Shown: positions 5,301 to 40,642 of the stretch, piece after piece
Numbering within the stretch: the stretch's first letter is position 1
How the letters are laid out: the number at the start of each line of letters is the position of its first letter
NCBI GenBank assembly: GCA_022072455.1
Contig: JAJVHY010000006.1
Location: 1 to 40,642, forward strand
Source of the DNA: Verrucomicrobiia bacterium
Lineage (GTDB): Bacteria; Verrucomicrobiota; Verrucomicrobiia; Palsa-1439
DNA: 40,642 nt
Reading direction: 5' to 3'
Notes under the pieces: model-generated
What the model was told of the DNA's origin: nothing
The model's database searches: none
What the model saw: only the letters and a program-made list of their open reading frames with translations
Program-made: the position numbers and the translations under genes

Positions 5301-5458
5301 TTGTCAGGACCTTGTGGCTCGCGAGGTTCCACAAGGTCCAGGTAATCCAGCGCATCGGGCGTGGCCACCTTGCCGAACCAACGCACTCCCGCGCCACGCG
5401 TGTTGACGCCGTAGTTCAGAAGCTCAGCTTGTAAATTGATTTTTGCCCTGCCCGGCAT
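2399..5458 (-). CDS. Large N6-adenine DNA methyltransferase (restriction-modification)
   Basis: A 1019-residue class I N6-adenine DNA methyltransferase. A HYTPRH segment (324-329) begins the catalytic domain, as in type I and Eco57I-like enzymes. Motif I, LDPACG (351-356), continues as ASVFL rather than the usual SGTFL. LVGFDISDAAL (about 393-403) is the acidic strand of the SAM pocket, and catalytic motif IV is NPPW (476-479). The first 290 residues are unassigned; the region after about 560 is long enough for target recognition. The downstream nuclease is translationally coupled. No HsdS, helicase or phospholipase gene is nearby, so this is not a complete type I, BREX or DISARM locus. A two-gene type II-like system is the best reading. 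Confidence 0.85.
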   Translation of the reverse strand: MPGRAKINLQAELLNYGVNTRGAGVRWFGKVATPDALDYLDLVEPREPQGPDKLLPDGVAENQGRPLLFFINANRLAQPVHEQEAQLKKLRRDLACRGDRAYLAVVRAGSLDVTPVSLTERTLEWSQYQPGSNQALTFFSRLALGRCEPLDEGDQRDFLFQEMFLLVDRTATRLSQLHLKRADVLSLIGRALFFRFLRDRAVIDEEHRHKIVPGAKSLLECFDNADNAWATSQWLDKTFNGDFLPLTEDGSRKFFENIGSRVFHHLGGIARGREPVGDDGFQLRLPIHWGDLNFAHIPVGLLSQVYERLSWKWDPANSGSTSVHYTPRHIAATLVGEVFDNLPNAHKARVLDPACGASVFLVLTLHRLYRERWEATGIRPDTKAIREILEQQLVGFDISDAALKLSALSLYLTAIELDPEPVPPEKLAFKKLLSGRHAILFNWRREEDKAEGPVIGSLGLHTGNRFDGCFDIVLSNPPWTSLEKKDKKLAKELENVSRAIVAKKDAALGEKYENPDSVPDLPFLWKATEWCKPDGRIAMALPARTLFKQRDNSRLARKAIFRLIEVTGIINCSNLRKTNVWPDMDQPFMLLFARNRKPKANHRIHFISPHTDQPLNRGGEMRIDIKSALPIEVEATISEPWLWKALAVGTSLDTDVVRKIKASGGQPLQEYWKSLGLACSNGYQIKPKQKQRDARPLKELPDLNSTDLFRFLVDTRRLKKFPHDKVCWPRLRNRGPDKLRVYRGPLALVKASLGNEREGGVALLSLDDIAYNESFYGYSAAGHSDAELLARYLQLFAHSGLMLHYTLLTSAEIGAERPKFQKLDFDDCLVMPIEKLTASDRLEIHKFSHRLINEDTSVFKDIDAFFARLYGLDELDLEVIRDTLEVRNPNDELGIRASKVPTKPERDRFLRRVEFILRPFFKILGKQPELELWRPSVAMDSPFLIMLLRDRGAKVEVPEKLFREAVLPLANETGATRIIQELDDALLIGMLNQYRYWTPSRTRLLASAILREHLKVFEG

Positions 5459-7641: not shown

Positions 7642-7744
7642 AAGTTGATGGTAGGCGCGAGGCCACCACGTTGATACCGCAACGGTGGGCGAAAGGAAAT
7701 ATTGAAAGCGGGACGGGTTGCCACCACTATGGCCGCCCAATTTT

Positions 7745-10700: not shown

Positions 10701-10759
10701 AAGTGACGTTGACGCGGGGGCCGACGGTTTACCGCGCGCAAAACATTCACCGGACGTAA
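7745..10759 (+). CDS. Heparinase II/III-like polysaccharide lyase with inserted domain
   Basis: About 1004 residues from the ATG at 7745; a TTG at 7718 is in frame but gives an unlikely N-terminus. A Cys4 site near the N-terminus (CPTC about 67-70, CPHC about 92-95, then GDLFPKNDF) could bind zinc. The middle is an alpha/alpha toroid. SHSHADGMNLG (about 531-541) and AHNTVVVDG (about 576-584) are hallmarks of the heparinase II/III family, whose members cleave uronic-acid-containing polysaccharides by beta-elimination. Around 651-799 the beta-sandwich is interrupted by a lectin-like (LamG / DUF1080-like) domain. No signal peptide, so it probably acts on imported oligosaccharides. The SGNH esterase follows after 16 bases. 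Confidence 0.85.
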   Translation: MPSTFLTASLLTRLQRNLQTDPWCAAGARELIVRAAPWHARSDAELWELMFGPTITRSWMVINNGFCPTCRGLTPGTNWIADPQRVPWKVACPHCGDLFPKNDFHAYYRSGLDRQGVFDPQLADRSLLGTGFGVDDGEGYCEGERRWRFIGTYLLQGIWKKEILAGIEVLSTAYVLTGDGSYARQAAVLLDRVADLHPLFDFATQGVIYGAGQRSNGAVDNWHAANVDVLGMAFAYDRIRPALPGDAVLVEFLSRQARRYELANPKTSWADIQRNIETRIFREALHVHPERFVSNAPRGEILRAVLTEILGEPGAEEMLDVMVANAVRVDGVTGEKGLASYCFYVIAALAEYLALLSRRDPGLLPALLKRHPRLRETYRFHVETRCLNRYYPNIGDAGGFAMPVTTFGVFFSEEPSLRPSAYSFMADLYRVTGEPVYLQMLNVAAREKLVPAWPHTEALARLPVESAGLPFDLFAEDPAAFRRELAERLAEVGTELPVKSVDKKEWCVAILQSGKGEHARAVWLDYDIGGSHSHADGMNLGLFAHGLDLLPDAGYPQNQFTVSDPAKTRWFITTAAHNTVVVDGRDQGHYYQSPARGRTTLWADGPVLQAVRAEFGAWPEPLPAVREEPVALYAYTTGRFRAVRIWTDDGTLALADDFQREALGPDWAIAEGEWRVESGWAVGRGKLVCTRQFRGPLRLDYEAQAASEQPCDLSAYVNGIFFGFGSENNQGSKLIVRANIPVAARSDRRILPGQTHQVSCRCAPQHLQMRVDGMLALDCPHLTNLTTRLVFGDDEAPKQFERTVALIDVSPTAAYVVDVFRVVGGREHVRFFHGTFGSVQTTGLTLRPGAGFGAEVLLRNIQTDPRAPVGWQATWQVRDHYRLLPAGRVVQMRQTDLTRDAEATVAEMWVNAGNLITMDEQWIPALVTRRRGPAPLATTFVAVIEPFATAPAIASIRRLEAVEPAVLLEITLADGSRDVVSCGPSEVTLTRGPTVYRAQNIHRT

Positions 10760-10775
10760 TGAGAAAGAAACCACG

Positions 10776-11378
10776 ATGAAGAAAATCTATGTTGTCGGTG
10801 ACAGTATTTCCATCCACTACGGCCCGTTCTTGGAGCGGTACCTGCGCGGGAAGGTGGCGTATGCGCGGAAGGAGGGGGCGGAGGAGGCGTTGTTGAATCT
10901 TGACCGGCCGCAAGGCGCGAACGGCGGGGATTCGTCCATGGTGCTCGCGTTTTTGAAAGCCAAGGGCGACCTCGCGGTTGATCGGGTGTTGGTGAACTGC
11001 GGTCTGCACGACATCAAGACCACGCCGGCTACTGGGGCGAAGCAGGTGCCGCTTGATCAGTACCAGGCCAATCTGCGGGCCATCGTCGCGCACGTGGGCG
11101 CAAAATTGATTTGGATTCGCAGCACGCCCTGTGATGAGCGCATCCACAATGCGCGGCCCGGCATGGAATTCTTCCGGTATGCCGCCGATCTCGCAGCGTA
11201 CAACGCAGCTGCCGATGCGATCATGGCGGCCGCGGGAGTGCCGGTGATTGATCTGTACACGTTCACGGTCAATCTTGGCCCCGATTTGTATTGTGACCAC
11301 GTTCACTTCCCGGAGCCGATTCGCGAGAAACAAGCGGCGTTCATTGCCGGGTGGCTGGATGGCTATTTCCGGCGCTGA
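10776..11378 (+). CDS. SGNH/GDSL-family hydrolase
   Basis: A 200-residue SGNH hydrolase. Block I is VVGDSIS (Ser10), a Gly occurs in NGGDSS (about 49-54), the Asn block is VNCGLHD (Asn74), and the last block is CDHVHF with Asp174 and His177 three apart, as the Ser-Asp-His triad requires. Such enzymes hydrolyse carbohydrate or other esters. No signal peptide, so it is cytoplasmic. It lies 16 bases after the lyase gene and is probably cotranscribed with it, which suggests removal of ester decorations from the lyase products. Its 3' end overlaps the convergent AraC gene by 16 bases. Confidence 0.85.
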   Translation: MKKIYVVGDSISIHYGPFLERYLRGKVAYARKEGAEEALLNLDRPQGANGGDSSMVLAFLKAKGDLAVDRVLVNCGLHDIKTTPATGAKQVPLDQYQANLRAIVAHVGAKLIWIRSTPCDERIHNARPGMEFFRYAADLAAYNAAADAIMAAAGVPVIDLYTFTVNLGPDLYCDHVHFPEPIREKQAAFIAGWLDGYFRR

Positions 11379-12232
11379 TATTCGCGGGGACTGACGCCCA
11401 TCACCTTGCGGAACTGCCGCGTGAAATAATTGCTGTCGGCGAACCCGACAGCCTCACTGACTTCCTTGATGCGTATGGGCTCGCGCCGGAGCAGTTGGCC
11501 GGCTTTTTGGACGCGGAGGCGGATGAGATAATCCACCGGTGAGCGACCGAGGATTTGCCGGAACAGCCGAAACAACGAGGTCTCCGACAAGTGCGCCACG
11601 CGGGCCAGATTGGCGACGGTCAACGGTTCGGCGAAATGTTGTTCAATGTAGCCGAGCACCTTGCTGAGTTGGGTGACCGGGCGTTGTTCCTCGACCGGCA
11701 ATTTCGAGTAGGCGCGCGCCACAAACGCCATGATCCGCATGAAATGCGCGGTCGCCAGAAACCGCGCGCCGGGATGGTGGGACCGCAATTCGCCTTCCAA
11801 CTCGGCGATCAGTTTGGCGAGTTGCCCGAGTTGTTCCATGTCGAGCTTGAGCCGGTTTTGGAAGCGCTGGCGTTGCCGGAAGCGCGGTTCGACTTCAAAC
11901 AGCGCGTGATAACCCGGCACGGTGCCGAGGTCGGCGCGGGGGAGGCGGAGGTTGGCGGGATCGTACAGGATGTTGATGAGCAGGAGGTCCTTGGTGACCG
12001 GGTAGCAGTGGCTGGTGCTGCCTAACAACACAAATACATCGCCCGCGCTGATGTCATAGACTTCGCGGCCGACCTGGTGTTGGCCGTGCCCACCGAGGAT
12101 CACCACCAGTTCCGCAAAGTCGTGCGTGTGTTGCTGGTGGCTCACGCCGTGTTGTGGAACGCGCATCACCCGCAACCGGAAATGCGGATCGGTGAAGAAT
12201 TGGGTGCCTTTGAGGTGGCTGACCGCTGGCAT
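11363..12232 (-). CDS. AraC-family regulator with cupin sensor domain
   Basis: An AraC/XylS-type regulator of about 289 residues. The N-terminal half is a cupin-like sensor (HTHDFAELVVILGGHG, then GDVFVLLGS). The C-terminal half has two helix-turn-helix motifs, LTVANLARVAHLSETSLFR and IKEVSEAVGFADSNYFTRQF, ending in the usual GVSPREYQRR. The start is uncertain: ATG at 12232 leaves a 79-base intergenic region before the divergent oxidoreductase gene, whereas ATG at 12310 would leave one base. Neither has a strong ribosome binding site. It likely responds to a sugar and controls the divergent operon, the lyase genes, or both. Confidence 0.85.
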   Translation of the reverse strand: MPAVSHLKGTQFFTDPHFRLRVMRVPQHGVSHQQHTHDFAELVVILGGHGQHQVGREVYDISAGDVFVLLGSTSHCYPVTKDLLLINILYDPANLRLPRADLGTVPGYHALFEVEPRFRQRQRFQNRLKLDMEQLGQLAKLIAELEGELRSHHPGARFLATAHFMRIMAFVARAYSKLPVEEQRPVTQLSKVLGYIEQHFAEPLTVANLARVAHLSETSLFRLFRQILGRSPVDYLIRLRVQKAGQLLRREPIRIKEVSEAVGFADSNYFTRQFRKVMGVSPREYQRRK

Positions 12233-12311
12233 GGAGGTGGCGGGATAGTCCAGATATTTGGGGGGATTGTCAAGGACGCCAAAGCGGGAATGACCTAGTG
12301 TCGCCGGCATT

Positions 12312-13418
12312 ATGGCACTCAAAGTCGGCATCATCGGACTGCGCGGCATCGGCGAAACTCATGCCCGCGCGCACAGTCAGAACCCGTTGGCAAAATTGGT
12401 TGCGGTCTGCGACGTCGTCAAAGAACGCGCGGACAAGGCGGCGGCGCAGTATGGCGGCAAGGCCTACGCCAGTCCGGCCGAGATGTTGCGGAACGAAGAC
12501 CTCGATGTCGTGGATGTCTGCACCGGTGGTTATGAAAATGGCGGCTGGCATTTCGAGCCGGTGATGGCGGCGTTGGCAGCCGGCAAGAATGTGCTCGTGG
12601 AGAAACCGATCTCCAACGACATCCACGAGGCGCGCGAGATGGTGCGGTTCGCGGCGGAAAAGGATGTTTATCTCGGCTGCAACCTCAACCACTATTTCAC
12701 CGAACCCGCCCGCCAAGCCCGGCAACTCATGACCGACGGCAAGATCGGCGAGCCGGTCTACTGTTTGCATCGCATGGGATTCATCGGCGGCGAAGACATA
12801 TATAAACCCGGTGGCGGCCCGAATTTCGACGGTTTCCCGTACGCCCATCTCAAGGCGTTTCTCGCGCATCCGTTCAGTTTGATGCGGCATTTCGGCGGCG
12901 ACATCACGCACGTTCAAGCCTTCATGGATCGGCCGAGTGTGCGTCGGCATGCCGGCGATTTGATGATGTCCATCGCCAGCGTCCACGTGAAATTCCACAA
13001 TGGCGCGATTGGGTACCTGTTCAGTTCGCGCGGCGACGCGACGATGGGCTTGGGCGGTTGGTGGAGTTTTGAATTCGGCGGCAGTAAGGGCACGTTCTGC
13101 ATCGAAAACTGTGTCGAGAAATTGACCTATTATCCCGCGCCCGCGCCGACCGACAAACTCGGTCTCGGTGAGCAACCGACGCCCGTCGTCACGAATACCG
13201 GCGTTAAAGATTTCGGCGCGACCTTCCCGGCGCGCATTAACGCGTACCTCGAAGACGTCACGAACCAGGTGCCGAAGTCGAAACTCCGCGCGTCGGGTCG
13301 CGATGCGTTGGCGACGCTCGAATACACGTTTGCGGCGATTGAATCATACGAGCAAGGCGGCGCCTTGGTGCGCCCGCACGCGCTGCCGACCTTGAAACGC
13401 GACCTCAAGGATCAATGA
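12312..13418 (+). CDS. Gfo/Idh/MocA-family oxidoreductase (first of three)
   Basis: A 368-residue NAD(P)-dependent sugar dehydrogenase-type protein. The dinucleotide-binding turn is GLRGIG (residues 9-14) and the signature EKP lies at 97-99, inside VLVEKPISN; NLNHYFTEPAR follows. No signal peptide, so it is cytoplasmic, unlike many secreted verrucomicrobial relatives. It is clearly paralogous to the last gene of this operon: both share TGGYE, EKPISN and a NLNH segment. It opens a six-gene run in which most junctions overlap by four bases. The substrate is unknown. Members typically oxidise or epimerise cyclic sugars and inositols through keto intermediates. Confidence 0.9.
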   Translation: MALKVGIIGLRGIGETHARAHSQNPLAKLVAVCDVVKERADKAAAQYGGKAYASPAEMLRNEDLDVVDVCTGGYENGGWHFEPVMAALAAGKNVLVEKPISNDIHEAREMVRFAAEKDVYLGCNLNHYFTEPARQARQLMTDGKIGEPVYCLHRMGFIGGEDIYKPGGGPNFDGFPYAHLKAFLAHPFSLMRHFGGDITHVQAFMDRPSVRRHAGDLMMSIASVHVKFHNGAIGYLFSSRGDATMGLGGWWSFEFGGSKGTFCIENCVEKLTYYPAPAPTDKLGLGEQPTPVVTNTGVKDFGATFPARINAYLEDVTNQVPKSKLRASGRDALATLEYTFAAIESYEQGGALVRPHALPTLKRDLKDQ

Positions 13419-14194
13419 CCATGAAACTCGGAGCGAATTCAGTTTTATTTGGCGGCCACAGCGTCGAGACGGCGTTTCAATACCTGGCGTTATGCGGATA
13501 CGACGGCATTGAAATCTCCGCCATCGCCGGTATGAGCGATCACATGATTGGCGCGGCGACGTTGAAAGAGCTGGCCGCGAAGTACAACCTGCCGATTCTC
13601 GCGATGGAACAACCATCCCAAGATCCGGCCACGATGGAAGCCGCGTTTCAGGCGGCGGTGGAAATGGGTTGTCCGCTCGTCAACTGCGGCCCCGGCGGCA
13701 AGAGCAACGACGAAGCGACGTTCCAGCAATCCATCGAATCCCTCGGCAAGCTGACCGACCGGGCGGCGCATTACGGTTTGACCTTGTGCGTGAAGGCGCA
13801 CGTCGGCGCGGCGATCTACAACACGCCGACGACGTTGCGCGCATTGCAGGCGATTCCGAAGATCGGTCTCGACATGGACCCAAGTCACATTCATCGCGCG
13901 AACGAAATTCCGGTCGACGCGATCGCGGCGGTCGTCTCCCGTATCCGGCACGTCCACATCCGCGACTGCAAAGGCCGGCAACAAAACCCCGGCAAGCCGG
14001 AGATGCAGGCCAACGGGCGCGGCGACATTGATCTGCTCGGCTACATCCGCGTGCTCCACCAAAATGGCTATACCGGCCCCGTGGATTTGGAAGTCATCGG
14101 CGCAAAGGAATACGACATCCCCCGGTGTGTCGCGATTGCCGCCGAAGCCCGCGGCCACATGCAAGCCTGTCTCCAAGCCTGTGGCGCTCGATGA
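13415..14194 (+). CDS. Sugar phosphate isomerase/epimerase-type TIM barrel
   Basis: About 259 residues (257 if the second ATG at 13421 is used) of the xylose-isomerase-like / AP endonuclease 2 TIM-barrel superfamily. Recognisable parts are the first strand (KLGANSVLF), YDGIEISA, GLDMDPSHIHRANE with metal-binding Asp and His, RIRHVHIRDCKG, and DLEVIG near the C-terminus. Such proteins isomerise or epimerise sugars, keto-sugars or inosose, and are often found beside Gfo/Idh/MocA dehydrogenases. The start overlaps the previous stop and the end overlaps the next start (ATGA), so it is translationally coupled on both sides. The substrate cannot be deduced. Confidence 0.88.
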   Translation: MTMKLGANSVLFGGHSVETAFQYLALCGYDGIEISAIAGMSDHMIGAATLKELAAKYNLPILAMEQPSQDPATMEAAFQAAVEMGCPLVNCGPGGKSNDEATFQQSIESLGKLTDRAAHYGLTLCVKAHVGAAIYNTPTTLRALQAIPKIGLDMDPSHIHRANEIPVDAIAAVVSRIRHVHIRDCKGRQQNPGKPEMQANGRGDIDLLGYIRVLHQNGYTGPVDLEVIGAKEYDIPRCVAIAAEARGHMQACLQACGAR

Positions 14195-15189
14195 AACTTG
14201 GCATCCTTGGTTTTGCTCACAGCCACGTCGGAATGTACATCGCCGAGTGGCGGAAAACCGGCGCGATGGAATTGACGGCCGGTTGGGATCACGACGTGAA
14301 ACGCGCTGCGGAGTCCGGTCTTCCCGTCTGCCAAACAATTGCGGAGTTATTGGGGCAGGTGGAGGCGGTCGTCATCGCCGCCGAGACATCCCGGCATGCC
14401 GAGTTGGTGGAACAAGCCGCCGCCGCCGGTAAGGCGATCATTTTACAAAAGCCGCTGGCGCTGACGCTGGCCGACGCCGACCGGATTGTGGCGGCAGTGA
14501 GAAACGTGCCGTTCACGCTCGCATGGCAGATGCGCGTTGATCCCCATAATGTCCAGCTCAAGTCGCTGCTGGCGACCGGCGCCTTCGGCAAAGTTTGCAT
14601 GCTGCGCCGCCGGCATGGATTACCGACACAGACTTGGCCGGATTTTGCGAAGACCTGGCACGTGCAACCGGAATTGAATCGCGACGTGTTTGCGGATGAT
14701 GCGGCGCATCCGCTTGATTTTCTCTATTGGCTGCGGGGAATGCCGGTGAGCGTGAGCGCAGAGCTGGGCACGCTGGTCAATCCGGCCATTGTCAATGACA
14801 CCGGAATTGCGGTATTGCGATTTGCAGATGGCTCGCTTGGGGAAGTGTCATGCAGCTTCGTGGCGGTGGCCGGGGAGAATGTCACCGAGGTGATTTGTGA
14901 ACGCGGCGTGATCATCCAGAATTACGGTGACGTCCCGAGCTGTAACAGTCCGCGACCGCCCGGGGCGGGGCCGCAGTTGAAATGGTTTCTCGATGGGAAA
15001 TGGCACGCGAGCGAGTTGCCGGAAATCAAGAACCACGGCGAACGCATTGCCGGGTTGGCGGCGCCGCTCGCGGAGTTTTTGCACGGAAAACGCCCCCCCA
15101 TCGCCACAGCGGCGGAAGGGCGGGACGTGTTGCGACTGGTGCTGGCGTGTTATGAATCTGACCAGCAAGGGAAACGGATCAATTTATGA
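14191..15189 (+). CDS. Divergent Gfo/Idh/MocA-family oxidoreductase (second of three)
   Basis: A 332-residue protein starting at the ATGA overlap with the isomerase gene; the open frame continues upstream but MKLGILGFAHSHVG is the typical start. It belongs to a divergent subgroup: the nucleotide-binding turn reads GFAHSH in place of GxGxxG, and the usual EKP is QKP (residues 86-88). The Lys is kept, so catalysis by hydride transfer is still possible, though cofactor binding may differ. It is distinct from the other two oxidoreductases of the operon, which resemble each other. This suggests a different step or substrate. Cytoplasmic, with no signal peptide. Confidence 0.85.
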   Translation: MKLGILGFAHSHVGMYIAEWRKTGAMELTAGWDHDVKRAAESGLPVCQTIAELLGQVEAVVIAAETSRHAELVEQAAAAGKAIILQKPLALTLADADRIVAAVRNVPFTLAWQMRVDPHNVQLKSLLATGAFGKVCMLRRRHGLPTQTWPDFAKTWHVQPELNRDVFADDAAHPLDFLYWLRGMPVSVSAELGTLVNPAIVNDTGIAVLRFADGSLGEVSCSFVAVAGENVTEVICERGVIIQNYGDVPSCNSPRPPGAGPQLKWFLDGKWHASELPEIKNHGERIAGLAAPLAEFLHGKRPPIATAAEGRDVLRLVLACYESDQQGKRINL

Positions 15190-16604
15190 AAAAACCAAAT
15201 CTGATTTTGTTCGGCATTGATAGCCTGCGGCGGGACCACATGAGTTTGTACGGGTACCGCCGGCTGACGACACCCCACATTGACAAATTCGCGGCGGGCG
15301 GGACCGTGTTTGAGAGTCATTTCAGTCCGCACATCCCGACGACGCCCGGCTATTCCTCGATGTTTACCGGCATGGATTGTTTTGGGACGGATGTGGTGGC
15401 GCTCCGGCATCAAGGCGGCCTCGGCCCGCACGTGAAGACCATCGCCGAAATTCTCGGCGAGGCCGGGTATCAGACGACATGCGTTGGGTTCGGCAGCAAC
15501 CCGGCCTCGCGGGGATTTCAGAAATACATCGAGTTTCCCGGTTGGGGGCCCGGCACGCAAGGCGGCCGGAGCCCAAAAGCGGAGGAGTTGAATAAAGTTA
15601 CGATCCCGGAATTGACGCGGCTGGCCGGCGACGATAAGCCGTTCTTTCTGTTCCTGCGGCACATGGATCCGCATTCACCGTATCTGCCGCCGTTGCCGTT
15701 TGAGCGCGCTTTCTATCACGGCAATGAGTGCGACCCCGCGAATCGTTCGCTCGACGGGATGAAGGCGTTCAAACCGTTCTGCGATTACATCACGAGCTGG
15801 TTGCCGGAGGGTTGTACGGATGCCGAGTATGTGAACGCGCAGTATGACGGCGCGATTGCGTACATGGACGCGGCGATTGCCAATCTCTTCGCGCAGATCG
15901 CGGCGTTGGGGTTGACCGAGAACACATTGGTTGTCATCACCGCCGACCACGGCGAGACGCTCGATGAACATGACTGCTACTTCGACCACCACGGGTTGTA
16001 TGAGCCGACGTTGGTGTTGCCGCTGGCGTTTGTGTGGCCGGGCAAGGTGCCGGCGGGGAAACGGTTCGCCGACATCACCCAAGCCAAGGATACGACGCCG
16101 ACCATTCTCGATTTACTGGGCCTCAAGACCGGGATCAAATACGACGGCCGCAGTCTCGTGCCGGTCATGCGTGGCAAGGCGCGGGCGGTCGAGCCGGAGT
16201 TTTACATCACGGAATGCACATGGATGCGGAAACACGGTTGGCGCACGCCGCAGTGGAAGTATATCCGCGCGCTCGAACCGGATTTTCATTTCAAGCCGGA
16301 GATCGAACTCTACGATCTGGTGCGCGATCCGTTGGAGAACCACAACGTTGCGGACAAAGAACCGGAGATCGTGAAGCTGCTGGATGCGCGGATGAACGCT
16401 TGGATCGCCAAGCGCGAGAAGGCGACCGGCCGGCCGAATCCGATGTTCACCAACCTCAACTGGCACGGCAAAGGGGGCGGCCCGTTCAAGACGTCGCAAC
16501 AGGCGTACGACTCGATGTACATCGGTTCGATGGTTGCCGCGCAGAAGTTGCAAGCCAGCGAAGTCCGCAAGGAACACGAAACACAACGCGGATCAAAAAT
16601 CTGA
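15186..16604 (+). CDS. Sulfatase-like alkaline-phosphatase-superfamily hydrolase lacking the formylglycine Cys/Ser
   Basis: A 472-residue member of the sulfatase branch of the alkaline phosphatase superfamily. Metal-binding motifs are present: GIDSLRRDH (Asp12), HMDPHSPY (about 159-166) and TADHGE (Asp254, His255), followed by HHGLYEPT. At the position of the formylglycine signature (C/S-x-P-S-R) the sequence is TTPGYSSMFTG: Thr52 replaces Cys/Ser and Tyr56 replaces Arg. It should therefore not be matured to formylglycine. A Thr nucleophile, as in phosphodiesterases and phosphoethanolamine transferases of this superfamily, is likely. No signal peptide, so it is cytoplasmic. It overlaps the previous gene by four bases and is followed after one base by the sulfotransferase gene. 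Confidence 0.85.
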   Translation: MKKPNLILFGIDSLRRDHMSLYGYRRLTTPHIDKFAAGGTVFESHFSPHIPTTPGYSSMFTGMDCFGTDVVALRHQGGLGPHVKTIAEILGEAGYQTTCVGFGSNPASRGFQKYIEFPGWGPGTQGGRSPKAEELNKVTIPELTRLAGDDKPFFLFLRHMDPHSPYLPPLPFERAFYHGNECDPANRSLDGMKAFKPFCDYITSWLPEGCTDAEYVNAQYDGAIAYMDAAIANLFAQIAALGLTENTLVVITADHGETLDEHDCYFDHHGLYEPTLVLPLAFVWPGKVPAGKRFADITQAKDTTPTILDLLGLKTGIKYDGRSLVPVMRGKARAVEPEFYITECTWMRKHGWRTPQWKYIRALEPDFHFKPEIELYDLVRDPLENHNVADKEPEIVKLLDARMNAWIAKREKATGRPNPMFTNLNWHGKGGGPFKTSQQAYDSMYIGSMVAAQKLQASEVRKEHETQRGSKI

Positions 16605-16605
16605 A

Positions 16606-17319
16606 ATGTTAATCACCGTCATTGGCCGGGGCCACTCTGGCACACGGGCGATGTCGCACACGCTCAAGGCGAGCGGCGTGTACATGGGCGAACCCCTCAA
16701 TCCGTCCGGCGACCTCATTCCACCGGAAGACATGTACGCTGCGTGCCGGGTTCTCGCACCACACGTCAAATGGCTCGGCGACTTGAACTGGGATTTCAGC
16801 GCGCTGCACACGATGGCGATACCGGCGGAGTTCCAGCGGCTGCTGGCGTCGTTTCTGAAATCGGTGCATGCGAGCAAGGCGGCGCACCGCGGCTGGAAGA
16901 TACCGGAGACGACGCTGTGCTATCCGTGGGTGCAGCGGCTCTTCCCCGAGATCAAATACATTTTTTGGATTCGTGACCCACGCGATTGCATCATTGGCCA
17001 TCACGTTACCGATGACCTGCGGGATTTTGGGGTTCACTACCCGGTCACCGATGACGTTCGGCGCCGCCGTGCCATCTCCTGGAAATATCAATACGACCTC
17101 GTCCAAGCCACGCCGAAACCGAAACACTGGATTGAAGTCCGATTAGAGGATTTCGTCCTCCGGCAAGACGAGACTCTGAAACGACTGGAAAAATTCCTTG
17201 GCATCCCGTTGGCCAAGATTCCGGTCAAATCTGACGTGATTGGCCGGTGGAAGAAGGATGCCGGCGTTCACGATTTTGATTTCTTCGCCCCAGCATTGAA
17301 AACATACGGTTACAAATGA
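16606..17319 (+). CDS. PAPS-dependent sulfotransferase-like protein
   Basis: A 237-residue sulfotransferase-family protein. The 5'-phosphosulfate-binding loop is GRGHSGT (residues 7-13) and the 3'-phosphate site is WIRDPRDC (121-128); WLGDLNWDF and HRGWKIPET lie between. VRLEDFV and the following Leu-rich helix match the C-terminal part of bacterial sulfotransferases. The family moves a sulfuryl group from PAPS to a hydroxyl or amine acceptor. The ATG lies one base after the sulfatase-like stop, and the stop overlaps the next start. No PAPS-making genes are in the window. The acceptor is unknown; the surrounding genes suggest a sugar or polyol. Kinase-like P-loop proteins are a less likely alternative. 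Confidence 0.8.
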   Translation: MLITVIGRGHSGTRAMSHTLKASGVYMGEPLNPSGDLIPPEDMYAACRVLAPHVKWLGDLNWDFSALHTMAIPAEFQRLLASFLKSVHASKAAHRGWKIPETTLCYPWVQRLFPEIKYIFWIRDPRDCIIGHHVTDDLRDFGVHYPVTDDVRRRRAISWKYQYDLVQATPKPKHWIEVRLEDFVLRQDETLKRLEKFLGIPLAKIPVKSDVIGRWKKDAGVHDFDFFAPALKTYGYK

Positions 17320-18305
17320 AAATCGGCGTCATCGGCCTCGGGCCAATCGGGAACCGGCACGCGAAACTCTATCGCGAGAATCCCGTGTGCGACTTGGTCG
17401 GTGTTTGCGACTTGCGCGCTGACCGGGCCGAAGCCGCCGGCAAGGCGTTTGGCGTTCCGTATTTTCTCGATGCGCGGGAGATGCTGGAGAAACTGCAGCC
17501 GGAAATTTGCAGTGTGGCGACCGGCGGTTATGAGTACGGCAGCGATCATTACTTGCCGACGATGCAGGCGCTCGAAGCCGGGTGTCATGTGCTTTGCGAA
17601 AAACCGATCAGCAACGAGATCAAGCCGGCCGAAGAGATGGTCGCGTTGGCGCGGGCGAAAGGACTTTGTCTCGGCGTGAATTTGAATCATCGGTTCACGC
17701 CGGCGGCGTTGCTCGCGAAGAAATGGGTGACGGACGGGCGCTTGGGACATTTGCTGTTCATCAACATGGGCATGTGGATCCTGAATCCCGCCGAGAGTTC
17801 CCCGTACTTTCATCTCAAGGCGTTGCATCCGCACACGGTGGACATTATGCGCTACTTTTGCGGCGACATCGAAGCGGTGCAATGTTTCGCGACGAAAGCA
17901 CCGGGCCGGAAGATTTGGTCAACGGCGCAATTCAATCTGCGGTTCAAGAATGGCGTGGTCGGGTCGCTGACCGGCAGCTACGACATCGGGCGCGGGCATC
18001 CGATGGAACGCTGTGAAGTGGCCGGCACGGGCGGGCGGTTTGTGCTCGACGATATGTTCCGGGAAGTCACGTTATACCCGGCGGAGACGTTGGAGAAAAC
18101 AGTCTACACGAATCCGATCTTCGGCGGGATGCGCGATTTTGAGGACACGTTTCGAAATCGAATCAACAAGTTCGTCGAGGAAATTTCCCAGGCGGTTCCA
18201 CCAGCTCAGATTGATGGCTCGGGTGCCGATGCTTTGGCGGCGCAAAAGGTTTTGGCGGCGGCAATCGAATCGCTGGAGACGGAAAAAGTAGTGGCAGTTC
18301 GTTAG
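17316..18305 (+). CDS. Gfo/Idh/MocA-family oxidoreductase (third of three)
   Basis: A 329-residue cytoplasmic oxidoreductase. It has the canonical Rossmann turn GLGPIG (7-12) and EKP (95-97). It keeps the TGGYE, CEKPISNEI and GVNLNHRFTP blocks shared with the first gene of the operon, so the two are products of a duplication. ALHPHTVDIMRYF is a likely catalytic His-containing helix. It overlaps the sulfotransferase gene by four bases and ends the operon; a gap of 77 bases precedes the next gene. Two similar dehydrogenases in one operon may carry out opposite redox steps, as in Gfo/Idh/MocA pathways that epimerise or cleave through 3-keto sugars. That is inference. Confidence 0.9.
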   Translation: MKIGVIGLGPIGNRHAKLYRENPVCDLVGVCDLRADRAEAAGKAFGVPYFLDAREMLEKLQPEICSVATGGYEYGSDHYLPTMQALEAGCHVLCEKPISNEIKPAEEMVALARAKGLCLGVNLNHRFTPAALLAKKWVTDGRLGHLLFINMGMWILNPAESSPYFHLKALHPHTVDIMRYFCGDIEAVQCFATKAPGRKIWSTAQFNLRFKNGVVGSLTGSYDIGRGHPMERCEVAGTGGRFVLDDMFREVTLYPAETLEKTVYTNPIFGGMRDFEDTFRNRINKFVEEISQAVPPAQIDGSGADALAAQKVLAAAIESLETEKVVAVR

Positions 18306-32217: not shown

Positions 32218-35200
32218 TTGAGCTATCAATACAAGAGTTATCGGTTCTTGGTTGCGATTATTGTTGGTTTTGCGTTGGGGAGCGCACCGCCGGCACGAGC
32301 TGCAACGGCGACTTGGACCAATTATGTGGTTGGCGGTAGTCTTTCTGACTACTGGACGAATAATCTGAGTTGGAACCCGACGACGAGTGTGCCCGGCGCG
32401 GCGGGGAGTGAGACGGCATTTCTGACGAACGACGTGGCAGTGGCTTACACCAACGTCATCAATTTCAAGCCCACCACGACGACGCTTGGCACGCTTGCCA
32501 TCTCCAACAATCTTGGCGAAGCGTGGTTGGTTGTCACCAACAACGCGGCCGCCACCGGTGTGAATCTGACGAACAGCACGTTTGCGTTAGGGAGTGGCGG
32601 CCGACTGCAAATTGACAGCGGTGGGGTGGTCACTGGTATTACCACCTTCACATGGCTCGGCACCAATGGCACGATCGTGCTGAACAACGGTGGGAAATTG
32701 TTCACTGCGGGGGCCACGACCATCGGCGCGGGTGGGAGCCTGACCGGGTTGGTTACCAGCACTAGCGGCGCCGGCAACGGCGGCGTCTGGAATCGCAACG
32801 CCGGCGCGCTCACGGTTGGCGGGGCCAGCGGGCACGATAACGTGATCACTATTTCGGACGGTGCGGTTCTCACCAATGTCGGCGCGCTGACCCTGACTGG
32901 CGATCGGAACAGCTTGGTTGTTAACGAAGGCGGTGCCTTGTTTGGGGCGGGAAACATTATTTTCAGCACGGCCAATTATGGCAACACGATCATCATGGGT
33001 TCAGGGGGGTGGAATCTGGCCGGTAATTCCCTGATTCTGGGCGGCGCCAACAATTCCAGTAACAATTCATTCATTAGTTATGGTGGCTCAGTAACTGGCG
33101 CTGCAGGGTTGATCGTCGGCGGAGTTGTCGATACCCCCACCAGTGGAAACAATTATAACAGTGTGATCTTCACCAATGGCGCTTTTGTCATGGGGAGTGC
33201 TGGAGCGATCGAAGTCGGCGGGGCGCGCAACCAAAACCCCGGCGGTAACAATAATACTGTGATCCTCTCCAACAGCGTCCTCAGGGCCAATACGCGCACG
33301 GTCATCGGGAGTGGCTCAACCAACAACCTTTTGATGCTCCTTCCTGACACGGTTTATGACGGCGGTGGAATACTAAACCATATCACCTTGGGAGGTTGGT
33401 CGACTTTTGTTGGCAGTAGTAATTCGTTCCTGGTCAGCGGCGGTCTCGTCACCAACTTTGGCGCTTTGCAACTCGGCATCACCGCGGCGACTGGTGGAAG
33501 CAGTAACTTAGTGGTCGTCAGCAATGGTGGGATTCTGAGTAACTTTGCCGGCATCACCGTCGGTGGCGTCACCGCCGGGAACAACTTCAACAGCTTGATA
33601 GCCACCAGCGACGCCAAGGTGTTCATGACCTCGGGAGCAATCGCGATCGGTTCGGTTGCCGGCGCTAACAACAATACGGTCATTCTCTCGAACAGCGTGC
33701 TTAAGAGCAGCACAGCTAACACTATTGGCTTGGGTTCGTCCAATAACACCTTGACCCTTCTGGACTCGACTTGGAATGTTGGCGGACTTGGGCTTCGGAT
33801 CGGCGAATTGAGCGGCACTGGTAACGTGGTTACTCTGGACGGCGGCCTCATGACCAATGTCGGTAAGTTGATAATTGGGGGCTATGATGCTGGGATTGCG
33901 ACACGATCGGTTAGCAACCGCCTTGAGGTGCTGAATGGCGGCGTCATCAGTAATGTCACCAGCTTGTATGTCGGTAGTGGACGCGGCACCACAGCCATCG
34001 GTTCGGACGGCAACAGCTTGATCGTCACCAGCAGTGGGAGCGGTTTCTTCATGACCGGCGCGGGCGGATTGGTCAGTATCGGTTCATCCTATAACCAGCA
34101 GCCTGGCGGGAACAATAATACCGTGATCCTATCCAACAGCGTTATTTTGGCTGCGAGCGAGAGCGTCACCACTTATTCCAATATTGGAAATCACTCGACC
34201 AATAACAACGTAACTTTGCTTGATAATTCGGTTTGGAATAATGGTGGGATCGGTTTGACGCTGGGCGGCTGGGCGGCGGCGGGTGGTTTTTCTGCGGGTG
34301 GGAGCAATAATACGCTGACTCTCCATGGAGCTGCGCTTACCAATGTCACGGCGCTGCATATCGGTACTGTTGCTGGCGCGTTCGGCAATCGAGTGATTCT
34401 TGAAGGCGACGGTAGCGTTACCGTCGGCTTGGGTACCGCGTTTGCTGGATTGGGCGTCGGTGGTGCCTCCGGGGCCGATAACAACAGCTTCATAATGACC
34501 AATGGCGGCGGACGCTTCTTCCTGAATAGCGGCAGCTTGTCAGTAGGCGCAGGCGTAACTGGTGGTGTCGGCGGTGGAGCTAACACCGTGATTATTTCCA
34601 ATGCGTTGATCATCGGCGGCGGCACTAGCTATAATGCGTGGATTGGCAGCGGCTCGTCGAACAATGTTCTGACAGTCCAGACCAACTCGACGTGGCGCTC
34701 TGTGGGGGTGGCCAGTATGACGATTGGCACAGGCGCGGCATATAACAATGTCGTGACCTTGGACGGCGCAGTCTATAGTAACGCACTCTACGTGAGCGTT
34801 GGCGCAACCAGCGGCTCGATCAGTAACCGGTTAGTCGTTCAGAACGGTGGCATCGTCAGCAATCTTTCCGGATTATTGGTCGGCAGTGCGGGTGGGGCGA
34901 ACTTCAACAGCGTTCAAGCCACGAACGGCGGTCAGCTGTTTGTCAACTCCGGTACGATCCTGGTCGGTAGCGGTTTGGGCGGCGTGGTCGGCGGCAGCTA
35001 TAACAGCGTCGCCCTGACCAACAGTTCTCTCCGTCTCAATCAATCCAGCTACATCGGCAGCGGTTCGACAAACAACAGCTTGGTTTTGCTCGGTGATTCT
35101 CTTTTGTTGAATACCGGCGCAAACATGAATTTTACGGTCGGCAACGGTGTCAACGCCGTCGGCAACAGCCTGCGAGTGGATGGTGGTCAGATCACTAATT

Positions 35201-38200
35201 TCTTCTATTTTTATGTCGGCAACGGGGTTGGCGCCTCGAGCAATACTGTGACTGTCAGCAACGGGAGTTTCACCACGGGCCAAGGCGTAGGGTTCGCTGG
35301 GCTAGTCGTCGGTGGAAACGTCGGCGCGAACTACAACAGCATGATCGCGACTGACAACGCCAGCGTGTTTCTGAATGGTGGGTTTCTGACTGTCGGCGCG
35401 ACTACAGGCGGTGGTATCGGAGGTGGCAACAACACCGTGATCTTGTCCAATGCAACCCTTAATGGCTGGTTTGCCTACAGTTCGTATATCGGCGTTGGTT
35501 CGTCCAACAACGCCGTGACCATTTTGCGCGATTCCTCCTGGAACTTGGTTGCCGCTGCCGGTATCACGATCGGTTCCGGCGCTGCACTCGGCAATATGCT
35601 CACTCTCAACGGTGCCATTGTCAGCAACTCTGGCGCATTGGTTGTCGGCGGTGCCGCGGGGTCTATCAGCAACCAGCTGTTGGTTACCGGCGGCGGTGTC
35701 ATTAGCAATGTGGTCGGGATCCGAGTTGGTGGTGGTAATGCCGCAGTGGCTCCGGGAGCGAGCGGTAATAGCGTGATCGTTACCAATGGCGGATTGTTCA
35801 TGGCGACCGGGGCGCTGGCCGTTGGCAATTCGGCTGGGAGCCACGCTGGTGGCGGCAACAACACGGTCATTCTCTCGAATAGTGCGGTGACGGTGAACGC
35901 CATCACCTACATTGGCACTGGTTCATCCAACAACACCGTGACCCTTCTCGGTGACACAGTGATGGATGGCGCCAACTTCGCATTGAACCTCGGCGGACTC
36001 AATACCGCCGGGGTGGGTAATATGTTTACCGTTGATGGGGCGATTGCGACCAATTTTGCCAGCTTGTCGGTCGGAAGCGGTGCGGGGACTGTCAATTATT
36101 CCAACACATTCCGGGTGCTCAATGGTGGCCAGCTCGGCGTTCGCGCGTTGGGTCTTATCATCGGTCAGAACGGTTCGAGTAATAATGCGTTCATTATTGA
36201 TGGCGGCTTGCAGCCATCGGCAAGCAGTACCGTCGTCAGTAACGGCGGCAATCTCACGATCGGCGGAACCAGTGGCAGCAGTTACAATCGGCTGACCATT
36301 ACCAATGCGACGCTCATGAGTCCTGGACAAATGGCGATCGGGTTTAGCGCCGGCGCAAACAGCAATCAGGTGATCATTAGCGGTGGCGGCATTATCACCA
36401 ACGTCAACAACTGGCTGATTGTTGGTGGCGGTGTCGGGAACGTCGCGACTCCCGCTCACTTTAATAGCTTGATTGTCAGCAATGGTGGCCAGTTCATCCT
36501 GACCGGCGGACGGGTCTTTGTTGGTGCGACAGTCGGGACTTCCAGCGTTGGCACCACCGGTGGTGGAAACAACGTGGTCATTCTCTCGAATAGCGTTGTC
36601 AACACCACATTTGTATCCGGCGGCGGCTACGCCACGACAGTTGGAATTGGGTCTTCAAATAATGTGCTGACTCTCCTCGCTGGTACGGTATGGGATAACG
36701 CCAACCATGAGGTCCGCCTCGGCAAGAATGGGCTGACATATAATAATGTCATCACGATTGACGGCGCTTTGTTTACTAACGCTGGTGTCCTGTACATCGG
36801 TGGCGATGTCGCCGGGCAGACGATTAGCAACCAACTGGTGGTTCAGAATGGCGGTGTCATCAGCAATGTTACGCGGCTGAGTGTTGGGACTGCCAGTGGG
36901 GCCAATTACAACAGTGTGATTGTCACCAATGGCGGTGGTCTGTTCATGACATCTGCGGGGATCTTCAGTGTGGGCAGCGCCGCCAATACGACCACCGGTG
37001 GTGGCAATAATACCGTCCTGCTCTCCAATAGCGTGATTTCGATCAACGGCACCCCTTGCGTCGGCTGTGGTTCGTCCAATAACATTGTGACATTTTTTGC
37101 CGATACCGCTGTCGATGGCGGGAATGTGGCGTTTGTCGTCGGCGGCAACGGCAACGCGGCCAGCAACGTGCTGACCGTCAACGGGGCAACGATGACCAAT
37201 GTCGGCGCGCTTTCCGTCGGAGTAAGCGCGGGGGCGAACTTCAATCGGCTTGTCATCACCAATGGCGGATTGGTTCAGGGGAATTCCAGCAGCACCATCG
37301 GCAATGTCGCCAACAGCAACAGCGTGACGGTCGCCGGTGGCACTGCCGATTCGACCTGGAATCTCGGCAACAACACCGTCACCATCGGCACGGGGGCCGC
37401 GCGCGGTAATGCAGTGAATGTCAACGAAGGCGGCAACGTTTTGGCCGGCGGGATGATCATCAGCGCCAGCACAACCTCCATTTCAAATGAACTCAATGTC
37501 GCCGGCGGATCTTTGTACGTGACCAATGCCGCCGGCAGCGCCGCCCTTCGCAGCGGTACCTCCGATGCGGCCGGCGGTTCAGCTCTCATCACTCTCACTA
37601 ACGGCACGATCACTGCGGATATTCTCACGGTCACCAATCTCAGCGGCGGATTGAGCAGCTTCAGTTTCAAATCTGGCACCACATCCGTCTTACAGGCGCG
37701 GATCAACTCGGCCTCACCGGGTGCGGCATCCTTCGTGGTGGGCGACGGTGCGGGTTCGGCGACGCTCCTCATTCGCAGTAATGCAACGCATACGTTTTTC
37801 AATGGCTTGGTGTTGACCAACAATTCCGTCCTCAAGGCAATCGGCACAATCAACGCCGGCAATACCGGTGTGATCGTCAAGGACGGCAGCGTCTTCTCGC
37901 CCGGCAACAGCCCCGGTACGCTAACGGAGAACGCAACCACGTGGGAAGGTGGCGGTACCTACCTGTTCGAAATCGCCAATTTCGCCGGCACCGCCGGCGT
38001 GGATTGGGATTTGCTGAATGTCACCGGCGCGCTCACGATCAACTCCAGCTTGGGCGATGAATTCATTGTCAAGCTCGACAGTTTGGGAGCGAATGCGCTC
38101 AATTTCGATCCGAGCAGCGATTACAGCGTGCTGTTCACTACGTTTGGCTCGCTACCGAACGGATTTGCAGCCAACAGATTCACGGTGGATGTCAGTTCGT

Positions 38201-40642
38201 TCTCGAACGCGCCGTCTAGCACGTGGGGAGTAATCCAAGGCGGCAACAATCTGTATCTGACCTACTCGTCCTATCTGGAGACGCCGGACTTCGTCTGGGG
38301 CTTCAGCAACGGGGCCTGGAACGTCGCCGGCAATTGGACCAACAACGCCGCCCCGCCGGGCGCTAAACCGGCTGATGAGTTGCGGCTGCAATTCGGCACC
38401 AACACACTGACGCAGTTTACGGCGACTAATGACACGGCTCGTTCGCTCAACGCGATCTTGTTGAGCAACGGCGGGAGTGGCACGAACACGCTGACCGGCA
38501 GCGCGATTACGTTTGTCGGCAGTAATGCGGTGATCGTCCAGAATGGCGGGTCATTTATCATCAGCAACAGCGTGGTGTTGGGGACGAACCTGACCTTCCG
38601 CGGCGTCGGGGCCGGCCAAGTGACGTTGGCCAGCAATATTACCGGGACCGCGCAGTTATCCAAGAAGGGCGCGTACAATTTGGAACTACTCGGCTCGAAT
38701 ACATTTGTTGGGCCGGTCTTGGTGGATGGCGCGAGTGGGACGCTGACCTTGGGTCACCGGGATGCGCTGGGCACGAATTCAATCACGGTCAGCAACGGTG
38801 CAGTATTTGCCCGCCTGCCGGGGGTTTCCTACATTGTCGGCAACAACTGGAGCAATCAGCAGGTGTTGGTGACCGGGACCGGTTCGGTCTGGACGAACGC
38901 GGCGGATCTGGTAATCGGCAACGGGGCCAACGCCGGCGCCAATGTCATGACCATCGAGGGCGGCGGGGCCTTGCGCGGGCCCACCATTTTGGTCGGGAGC
39001 AACAGCGCCGCCGGCAACAGCTTGGTCATCTCCAACGGCGGCCGACTCTTTGCCACCCAACTCATTGTCGGCCATGGCGCGACCACGGTGAGCAATTCTG
39101 TGGTCATTGATGGCGGCCCGCAAGTATCGGCAGCCAGCACTGTGGTGACCGGGGCGCTCGTCGTCGGATCGGCCTCGTCCCGCTTCAACACGTTGACGCT
39201 TACCAACGCCACGCTCTTGAGTAATACCGCGACGATTGGGAATTCTGCCGGTAACAACAGCCTGACCGTCTTGACCAATGGGATATGGAATCTCGGCAAT
39301 ACTAAGATCACCATCGGCGTCGGAACAGGGACGGGCAACAGTAACATCCTGACCGTCAATGGCGGCATGGTCACCAACGTCAATATTGTGGTCTTGGGTG
39401 GCGCTGGCAACGCGTTGAACCGGTCCGACTACAACACCCTGATCGTCACTAATGGCGGGCAGTTGTTCAACATTGGCGAAACCCGAATTGGCGACTCCCT
39501 CGGGGTGGGTAATCAGATGATTGTGGACAAGGGCACGTATTCAGGTGTGGGACACCTTTCCATAGGCCTCGGAATTTCCACTGGTGGCGGTGGCGGCTCC
39601 AATAGTCTGGCAATTCTTAATGGCGGATATATGAGTGTGACGGCGGTCGCCGTTGGCGGATGGGGTTTTCCATCATTCACCTACGGTAGTTCGAGCAATA
39701 GCCTCACAGTCGCAGGGTCGAGCGGCGGTCGCAAGGCGACGCTCATGATGGGTGGCGGTGCGAATGATTTGCGGATCGGCACGGAGAACAACGCCAGCAA
39801 CAATCTCGTCTTCATCGGTGGGGGCGGATTGATCACCAATGCGCGAGCCGTGCTCGTTGGTGGCGGGACAGGTCAACAGGGCAATAGTTTGATCATCACC
39901 AACGGCGGCCAGTTGTACAGCCTTGGCACTGCGATCAGCTATGTTGGCAATGCCGCCGGGAGTAATCTGGTCGTGATTGCCGGAAGCAATTCGCGGTGGG
40001 ATTTGAATGGCGGCACCCTCACCATCGGTAGCGGAAGTGCTGGTTCGAGTAATCAATTATGGATCACGACTGGCGGCTTGTTGACGAATGCGCACCTTCT
40101 CGTCGGTCAGAACGCCGGTGGGGCCAGCAGTAATCTGGTGCTTTTCAATGGCGGCAACTTCCATGCGCCGAACCGCAACCTGATCATTGGCGACACCAGT
40201 CCTTCGTTCAATTCTTCCTCCAACTTGGTGCTGATCACCGGCAACAGCACTGTGACGGTGTTGACTAATTACATTAGCGGGGCCGGTAACCGGCTGATGC
40301 TGGCGGGCGGGACGCTCAATGCGGAATTTCTCACTGTGACCAACCGTGGAGCGGGGGTTAACAGTCTGCTACTCAACAGCGGCACGCTGTCGGTCTCGAC
40401 CCGAACAGTGATCAGCAACGGGCAGGATTTTGTGATTGGCGACGGCAACAATGGGGCGACGTTCGACACGGTGACGGGGACGCATTACTTCCAGAACAGT
40501 TTCCTGGTGACCAACCAGGGGACGGTGACGGGGGCGGGTGACCTGCGGGTGGCGGGGGGCAACGGGACGGTGAATGTGTTGGCGGGTGGCACGCTGGCGC
40601 CGGGGAGTGGGATTGGGACATTGAGCATCAGCGGGACGAACC
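32218..40642 (+). CDS. Giant secreted repeat protein, 3' end outside the window (partial)
   Basis: One reading frame stays open from TTG at 32218 (in-frame TAA at 32200) to the window edge: 2808 codons and no stop. The start gives SYQYKSYRFLVAIIVGFALG, then SAPPARA/ATATW, a good signal peptide. Short beta-rung repeats built on N-S-L-I-V-T-N-G-G and I-G-S-G-S-S-N-N dominate. A cassette-ending domain lies at about 37880-38270 (VFSPGNSPGTL, VDWDLLNVTGALTI). A second cassette then opens with WNVAGNWTNNAAP and has a PATR-like repeat (LSKKGAYNLELLGSNTFVG, near 38650). This matches autotransporter-associated beta-strand passenger proteins of Verrucomicrobia, expected to be a long right-handed beta-helix at the cell surface. 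The C-terminal anchor (barrel, PEP-CTERM or other) is not visible. Confidence 0.88.
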   Translation, partial: MSYQYKSYRFLVAIIVGFALGSAPPARAATATWTNYVVGGSLSDYWTNNLSWNPTTSVPGAAGSETAFLTNDVAVAYTNVINFKPTTTTLGTLAISNNLGEAWLVVTNNAAATGVNLTNSTFALGSGGRLQIDSGGVVTGITTFTWLGTNGTIVLNNGGKLFTAGATTIGAGGSLTGLVTSTSGAGNGGVWNRNAGALTVGGASGHDNVITISDGAVLTNVGALTLTGDRNSLVVNEGGALFGAGNIIFSTANYGNTIIMGSGGWNLAGNSLILGGANNSSNNSFISYGGSVTGAAGLIVGGVVDTPTSGNNYNSVIFTNGAFVMGSAGAIEVGGARNQNPGGNNNTVILSNSVLRANTRTVIGSGSTNNLLMLLPDTVYDGGGILNHITLGGWSTFVGSSNSFLVSGGLVTNFGALQLGITAATGGSSNLVVVSNGGILSNFAGITVGGVTAGNNFNSLIATSDAKVFMTSGAIAIGSVAGANNNTVILSNSVLKSSTANTIGLGSSNNTLTLLDSTWNVGGLGLRIGELSGTGNVVTLDGGLMTNVGKLIIGGYDAGIATRSVSNRLEVLNGGVISNVTSLYVGSGRGTTAIGSDGNSLIVTSSGSGFFMTGAGGLVSIGSSYNQQPGGNNNTVILSNSVILAASESVTTYSNIGNHSTNNNVTLLDNSVWNNGGIGLTLGGWAAAGGFSAGGSNNTLTLHGAALTNVTALHIGTVAGAFGNRVILEGDGSVTVGLGTAFAGLGVGGASGADNNSFIMTNGGGRFFLNSGSLSVGAGVTGGVGGGANTVIISNALIIGGGTSYNAWIGSGSSNNVLTVQTNSTWRSVGVASMTIGTGAAYNNVVTLDGAVYSNALYVSVGATSGSISNRLVVQNGGIVSNLSGLLVGSAGGANFNSVQATNGGQLFVNSGTILVGSGLGGVVGGSYNSVALTNSSLRLNQSSYIGSGSTNNSLVLLGDSLLLNTGANMNFTVGNGVNAVGNSLRVDGGQITNFFYFYVGNGVGASSNTVTVSNGSFTTGQGVGFAGLVVGGNVGANYNSMIATDNASVFLNGGFLTVGATTGGGIGGGNNTVILSNATLNGWFAYSSYIGVGSSNNAVTILRDSSWNLVAAAGITIGSGAALGNMLTLNGAIVSNSGALVVGGAAGSISNQLLVTGGGVISNVVGIRVGGGNAAVAPGASGNSVIVTNGGLFMATGALAVGNSAGSHAGGGNNTVILSNSAVTVNAITYIGTGSSNNTVTLLGDTVMDGANFALNLGGLNTAGVGNMFTVDGAIATNFASLSVGSGAGTVNYSNTFRVLNGGQLGVRALGLIIGQNGSSNNAFIIDGGLQPSASSTVVSNGGNLTIGGTSGSSYNRLTITNATLMSPGQMAIGFSAGANSNQVIISGGGIITNVNNWLIVGGGVGNVATPAHFNSLIVSNGGQFILTGGRVFVGATVGTSSVGTTGGGNNVVILSNSVVNTTFVSGGGYATTVGIGSSNNVLTLLAGTVWDNANHEVRLGKNGLTYNNVITIDGALFTNAGVLYIGGDVAGQTISNQLVVQNGGVISNVTRLSVGTASGANYNSVIVTNGGGLFMTSAGIFSVGSAANTTTGGGNNTVLLSNSVISINGTPCVGCGSSNNIVTFFADTAVDGGNVAFVVGGNGNAASNVLTVNGATMTNVGALSVGVSAGANFNRLVITNGGLVQGNSSSTIGNVANSNSVTVAGGTADSTWNLGNNTVTIGTGAARGNAVNVNEGGNVLAGGMIISASTTSISNELNVAGGSLYVTNAAGSAALRSGTSDAAGGSALITLTNGTITADILTVTNLSGGLSSFSFKSGTTSVLQARINSASPGAASFVVGDGAGSATLLIRSNATHTFFNGLVLTNNSVLKAIGTINAGNTGVIVKDGSVFSPGNSPGTLTENATTWEGGGTYLFEIANFAGTAGVDWDLLNVTGALTINSSLGDEFIVKLDSLGANALNFDPSSDYSVLFTTFGSLPNGFAANRFTVDVSSFSNAPSSTWGVIQGGNNLYLTYSSYLETPDFVWGFSNGAWNVAGNWTNNAAPPGAKPADELRLQFGTNTLTQFTATNDTARSLNAILLSNGGSGTNTLTGSAITFVGSNAVIVQNGGSFIISNSVVLGTNLTFRGVGAGQVTLASNITGTAQLSKKGAYNLELLGSNTFVGPVLVDGASGTLTLGHRDALGTNSITVSNGAVFARLPGVSYIVGNNWSNQQVLVTGTGSVWTNAADLVIGNGANAGANVMTIEGGGALRGPTILVGSNSAAGNSLVISNGGRLFATQLIVGHGATTVSNSVVIDGGPQVSAASTVVTGALVVGSASSRFNTLTLTNATLLSNTATIGNSAGNNSLTVLTNGIWNLGNTKITIGVGTGTGNSNILTVNGGMVTNVNIVVLGGAGNALNRSDYNTLIVTNGGQLFNIGETRIGDSLGVGNQMIVDKGTYSGVGHLSIGLGISTGGGGGSNSLAILNGGYMSVTAVAVGGWGFPSFTYGSSSNSLTVAGSSGGRKATLMMGGGANDLRIGTENNASNNLVFIGGGGLITNARAVLVGGGTGQQGNSLIITNGGQLYSLGTAISYVGNAAGSNLVVIAGSNSRWDLNGGTLTIGSGSAGSSNQLWITTGGLLTNAHLLVGQNAGGASSNLVLFNGGNFHAPNRNLIIGDTSPSFNSSSNLVLITGNSTVTVLTNYISGAGNRLMLAGGTLNAEFLTVTNRGAGVNSLLLNSGTLSVSTRTVISNGQDFVIGDGNNGATFDTVTGTHYFQNSFLVTNQGTVTGAGDLRVAGGNGTVNVLAGGTLAPGSGIGTLSISGTN
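33253..37300 (+). repeat. Super-repeats of about 140-155 codons within the giant gene
   Basis: The marker segment NTVILSNS or a variant recurs at 33253, 33673, 34117, 34582, 35002, 35431, 35860, 36286 (NRLTITNA), 36571 and 37009. Intervals are 420, 444, 465, 420, 429, 429, 426, 285 and 438 bases, all multiples of three. Each unit runs, in order: NTVILSNS, IGSGSSNN, a line with LTLL and a D-S-x-W-N, a VTLDGA line, LVVQNGGVISN, NSVIVTNGG, FMTGA. Units differ in detail, so they are old or diversifying copies. Confidence 0.85.

Follow-up and report, generated by a model that had tools for sequence, protein, structure and literature searches.

A giant beta-helix protein of probable PEP-CTERM/exosortase type at a contig end in a Verrucomicrobiia genome

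Overall result

The gene that runs off the end of the window (the whole stretch of DNA analyzed, 40,642 nucleotides) most likely encodes a giant extracellular beta-helix protein of the PEP-CTERM/exosortase type, probably 4288 amino acids long, which would serve as a matrix or adhesion fibre. The window holds the front two thirds of this very large secreted protein, which is a lineage-specific further member of an already known class. A large frame that could not be annotated is placed within an expanded set of exosortase-dependent surface proteins, and the general picture of the PEP-CTERM system is unchanged.

Reading frame and domain organization

A TTG start codon at position 32218 of the forward strand is followed by 2808 codons without a stop (32218–40641). 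This 5' part of the gene, cut by the contig end, occupies 32218–40642. If bases of the same composition were ordered at random, a frame would stay free of stops over this length with a probability of about 1e-47. Codon usage trained on the neighbouring genes ranks the sense frame best of six in 27 of 27 scanning windows. Comparison with a paralogue yields 82, 67 and 147 mismatches at codon positions 1, 2 and 3, respectively, and this excess at the third position indicates a translated frame.

On the opposite strand, several open frames reach 167–221 amino acids and could be taken for the real genes, with the sense frame being incidental. They are accounted for by the base composition, which leaves few stops on the opposite strand (one antisense frame contains only 29), and the antisense frames won none of the 27 codon-usage windows. 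Since codon usage, the mismatch pattern and conservation of the protein in paralogues all favour the sense frame, antisense genes were rejected, their probability being negligible. A frameshifted pseudogene was likewise rejected, since repeat homology stays in frame up to the contig end. The preliminary description, which had reported a single TTG-started frame accompanied by misleading antisense open frames, was correct in both respects.

The predicted Sec signal peptide (32218–32301) comprises an n-region with Lys and Arg, a FLVAIIVGFALGSA core and the motif PARA in front of the putative cleavage site. This tripartite, signal-peptide-like pattern aligns with seven paralogues and residues 3–21 are helical in the model, in agreement with the signal peptide noted earlier. 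It is followed by a conserved N-terminal domain (32302–32838; TWTN...DYWTNNxSW...LGEAWLVVTN...), which is all-beta and is common to at least seven paralogues with 50–58% identity. Residues 23–62 of the N-terminal model are poorly predicted; from about residue 89 the model is beta-helix-like.

The first coil array, delineated by coil analysis, contains about 53 coils (32839–37401). A linker module, extending from FSPGNSPGTLTENATTWEGGGTYLFE to a PATR-like stretch (37402–38835), is 81% identical to the paralogue at the start of contig C12. It leads to one T5SS/PEP-CTERM-associated repeat (TIGR04393; 38836–38973) and to a second, more divergent coil array (38863–40290), again defined by coil analysis. 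Only the beginning of a second linker module is present (40291–40642), of which positions 40413–40630 match C12 and positions 40516–40642 match the end of contig C7. All features lie on the forward strand. The protein showed neither an enzymatic nor a pore domain.

Predicted fold

A model of two superrepeats of the first array, residues 816–1097 (34663–35508), was based on an alignment of 21 slices from the gene and its paralogues and reached a pLDDT of 94 and a pTM of 0.92. VIA-align comparison with parallel beta-helices resulted in Z-scores of 17–19, with a top value of 18.7 over 234 residues at 2.7 Å. The matched folds include alginate epimerase, Vag8, an SRRP adhesin, pertactin, UpaB, tailspikes and polygalacturonases, while Foldseek alone found no match at E ≤ 0.001. 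The model clearly predicts a right-handed parallel beta-helix, in which coils of three short strands are stacked as a solenoid. The beta-helix-type repeats that had been proposed from the letters are thereby borne out.

Polysaccharide lyases and epimerases adopt a beta-helix as well, and the predicted fold does not distinguish between fibre and enzyme. A carbohydrate-active enzyme resembling a polysaccharide lyase, epimerase or glycanase, instead of a structural fibre, could be read from the many top structural matches to alginate epimerases, polygalacturonases and tailspikes, and from a sulfatase and a heparinase-like gene in the same window. However, the protein has no convincing enzyme match in Pfam or NCBIfam, the coils are near-copies in which a unique catalytic cluster was not seen, and the beta-helix fold is also found in non-enzymes. 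An enzyme is therefore improbable.

Coils and five-coil superrepeat

The coils have a length of about 28 residues, mostly 23–34 in the first array, and fall into five types that follow each other in the fixed order E-A-B-C-D. Identity is 41% within a coil type versus 25% between types, a difference matched by none of 2000 label permutations. Adjacent coils are in order in 43 of 45 cases, a count that is partly circular because the type models were built from this gene alone. In held-out paralogues the order is kept by 10 of 10 and 13 of 13 adjacent coils on C13 and by 17 of 18 on C8; it is not clear in C12, C1, C11, C33, C34 or the five foreign loci tested. From position 33253 onwards, the coils of the first array form nine five-coil superrepeats of about 140 amino acids each, one of them with extra coils.

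The superrepeat array did not match any entry of the repeat-model library, its profile retrieved no solved structure by sequence, and no paper on this repeat was found in the literature. Apart from the superrepeat and the near-identical patches shared with paralogues, every feature could be assigned to a family already described. "Poorly characterised", as the protein had been called, holds for the central repeats but not for the protein class, which is well described. One rather speculative reading regards the superrepeat as a functional lattice in which a face that binds a ligand or calcium returns with each set of five coils, with the near-identical linker and tail patches as recombination joints through which this lineage would shuffle superrepeat cassettes among dozens of surface fibres; we consider this unlikely. 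As a clean structural unit, the five-coil superrepeat is suited to expression and to tests of polysaccharide and calcium binding.

Continuation beyond the contig end

The genome assembly comprises 4.82 Mb in 36 contigs and is about 96% complete. The window corresponds to the entire contig C28 of exactly 40642 bp, and the missing gene end is an assembly effect, a contig break, and not a biological feature. Terminal overlaps were sought between both ends of all 36 contigs. Four were found, three of them exactly 127 bp long, as expected from an assembly graph with a word length of 127. One of these links C28 to C7: the last 127 bp of C28 (40516–40642) recur without a difference at the end of C7, in reverse orientation. 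No stop interrupts the frame where the two contigs would be joined; C7 carries 1522 of its codons, up to a stop at C7:253389, and the total is 4288 amino acids. The product of this likely, but not proven, join ends in VIPEPNVLVLWLSGFLTFAAARRRSRRS, which combines VIPEP, a hydrophobic stretch and RRRSRR. Located at the extreme C-terminus and covering nearly the full models, the tail scores slightly below the cut-offs of PF07589 (19.7 versus 20.7 bits) and TIGR02595 (15.5 versus 16 bits).

The start of C12, which carries a paralogous frame of 2325 codons, also meets the end of C7, with 115 identical bp. Positions 40413–40630 of C28 are 97.7% identical to this paralogue over 218 bp, and the base immediately before the shared 127 bp is not the same in C12 and C28. 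As both C28 and C12 meet C7, the assembly graph has two entries and one exit. The C7 segment might consequently belong to the C12 paralogue, in which case the frame would be correct and the C28 gene would end elsewhere, still in a PEP-CTERM tail. Against this, only C28 possesses the full 127-bp overlap, whereas C12 lacks the last 12 bases. Judged from these overlaps, the C28 gene rather probably continues into C7, and assignment of C7 to C12 is the weaker, though by no means small, possibility. The functional reading is the same whichever of the two is joined to C7, and the type of protein would be judged alike without the join, since paralogues that can be read to their end carry PEP-CTERM-type tails.

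Continuation on C7 with closure of the frame in a PEP-CTERM tail is thus the probable course suggested by the overlap. The preliminary description had seen no visible end and had advised reading beyond 40642. The frame is indeed open up to this position, but the cause is a contig break, and reading on yields, through a join that is likely and not proven, a stop and a PEP-CTERM-like tail.

Profile matches and comparison with known protein classes

Scanned at its full length of 2808 amino acids, the protein matched none of the Pfam and NCBIfam families even at E ≤ 1, presumably because the composition filters of HMMER suppress long repetitive queries. TIGR04393 was detected in slices only: the repeat at 38836–38973 reaches 26.8–29.4 bits against a cut-off of 23, one of 66 matches genome-wide. 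In this one repeat the protein resembles TIGR04393 proteins, whereas its main five-coil superrepeat array matches no repeat model.

PATR repeats (PF12951/TIGR02601), which had been proposed as a search target together with PEP-CTERM and autotransporter barrel models, do not exceed the cut-off inside the window, the best score of 7.9 bits in the linker comparing with a cut-off of 27. None of the 51 PATR hits of the genome lies on C28, but the likely continuation on C7 contains five matches and shares this trait with PATR proteins. The PEP-CTERM models find their match in the same continuation, just below the cut-offs as given above.

The right-handed parallel beta-helix is also characteristic of autotransporter passengers, and Vag8, pertactin and UpaB are matched with Z-scores of 17–18. 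Together with the PATR repeats in the likely continuation, this would be compatible with a type V autotransporter, in which the missing C-terminus forms an outer-membrane barrel. In contrast, identity to the three passengers is only 13–17% in the structural alignments, and the barrel (PF03797) was found nowhere in the approximately 96% complete genome, although the controls E. coli and Caulobacter were positive. Moreover, a PEP motif followed by a hydrophobic and basic tail is present on the paralogues read to their end and on the C7 continuation. As no barrel was found and the paralogues have PEP-CTERM-type tails, the autotransporter was rejected as highly improbable, with a small probability left for a barrel gene in the part of the genome that the assembly lacks.

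With PEP-CTERM/exosortase proteins, on the other hand, the protein shares a signal-peptide-like N-terminus, a divergent and repeat-rich middle part, many paralogues per genome and the co-occurrence of exosortases, as well as a PEP-type tail, seen in paralogues and at the end of the likely C7 continuation. It differs in its great length, in that its own C-terminus lies outside the window, and in the C7 tail being slightly under the cut-offs.

Paralogues and relatives

Other open frames of this genome that resemble it in repeat or tail type comprise 2880, 3184, 3221 and 4725 amino acids, the longest with TIGR04393 matches. Relatives of the coils are recognizable in 27 of 188 genomes of a class sample, with open frames of up to 6732 amino acids. 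The protein is therefore among the larger ones of its genome, as had been supposed, but larger proteins of this kind occur both in the genome and in the class. In a scan of named genomes, only two distant relatives were found, both ending without a PEP-CTERM tail. These two, on Verrucomicrobia and lake metagenome contigs (L163 and L164), are the named sequences closest to the N-terminal domain. They end in IAVIVPSQGTLVSFY and SIEGTALLVF, which may reflect loss or replacement of the sorting signal.

Further giant repeat genes are cut at contig ends, namely at the end of C33 (3184 codons), the start of C34 (3221 codons), the start of C13 and the end of C32. The frames on C33 and C34 break off in the same protein sequence, NSLTIDGAALTNVNAMAIGVGAARTNQVTLNGGALSVNS, so there, too, the assembly breaks at segments shared by paralogues. 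Such genes are interrupted in the assembly where paralogues are nearly identical, which is why the frame in the window looked endless. At the end of C15 and the starts of C18 and C20, 125–133 bp encoding the PEP-CTERM tail QIHQLNSLTETLSVIPEPNVLVLWLSG are 98–100% identical to the C7 tail; gene conversion or module exchange among paralogues is a possible origin of these shared patches.

Exosortase system and proposed function

The PEP-CTERM/exosortase (EpsH) system was described by Haft et al. 2006 (PMC1569441); PEP-CTERM was first noticed in Verrucomicrobium spinosum, which has 65 members (PMC1569441). The present genome yields 46 TIGR02595 (PEP-CTERM) hits, and complete paralogues that could be read to their end close with a PEP motif together with a hydrophobic stretch and a cluster of basic residues. 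At least two complete exosortase genes are present, and they encode the Cys, Arg and His motifs: PF09721 is matched on C8 and C29 with 188 and 158 bits, and the motifs PCSG, NLAR and YHxxSG are found. After the exosortase gene on C29 come an EpsI-like protein and a glycan-polymer gene, both probable and named by sequence inspection, not from a model match.

Taken together, these analyses make it most likely that the protein belongs to the cell surface or the biofilm matrix, as one of dozens of the PEP-CTERM kind in this genome. Export by Sec would be followed by retention in the inner membrane through the C-terminal helix, cleavage or transfer by exosortase at the PEP motif, and delivery to the outer surface or to the exopolysaccharide matrix, where the long rod could act as a structural or adhesive fibre that binds matrix to cells. 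The steps of export and processing are inferred after PMC1569441, and the matrix role by analogy from two systems: PepA of Aquincola, a PEP-CTERM protein, keeps exopolysaccharide attached in flocs (PMC9850573), and loss of the exosortase CrtB in Nostoc abolishes biofilm formation (PMC12188702).

Remainder of the window

Upstream of the giant gene, the reverse strand encodes an N6-adenine methylase/Eco57I-type restriction-modification protein of 1019 amino acids (2399–5458). Genes at 7718–18305 encode a heparinase II/III-like protein, a GDSL lipase, an AraC regulator, three GFO/IDH/MocA oxidoreductases, a xylose-isomerase-like protein and a sulfatase, and likely constitute a polysaccharide or sugar utilization cluster.

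Positions 1–130 of the window belong to a dispersed repeat with the frame TRTTKGTNGTSCLTDEKFAPPLGEGQTGELPTQLLNLTDTT, which is also located at one or both ends of C5, C9, C15, C19, C25, C26 and C29. A second dispersed repeat, QFGHVNAMLLPGHGLVLLVFVVWLAGRTTM, terminates C1, C2, C6, C9, C10, C16, C18, C22, C27 and C34. Both have the appearance of mobile or repeated elements at which the assembly breaks.
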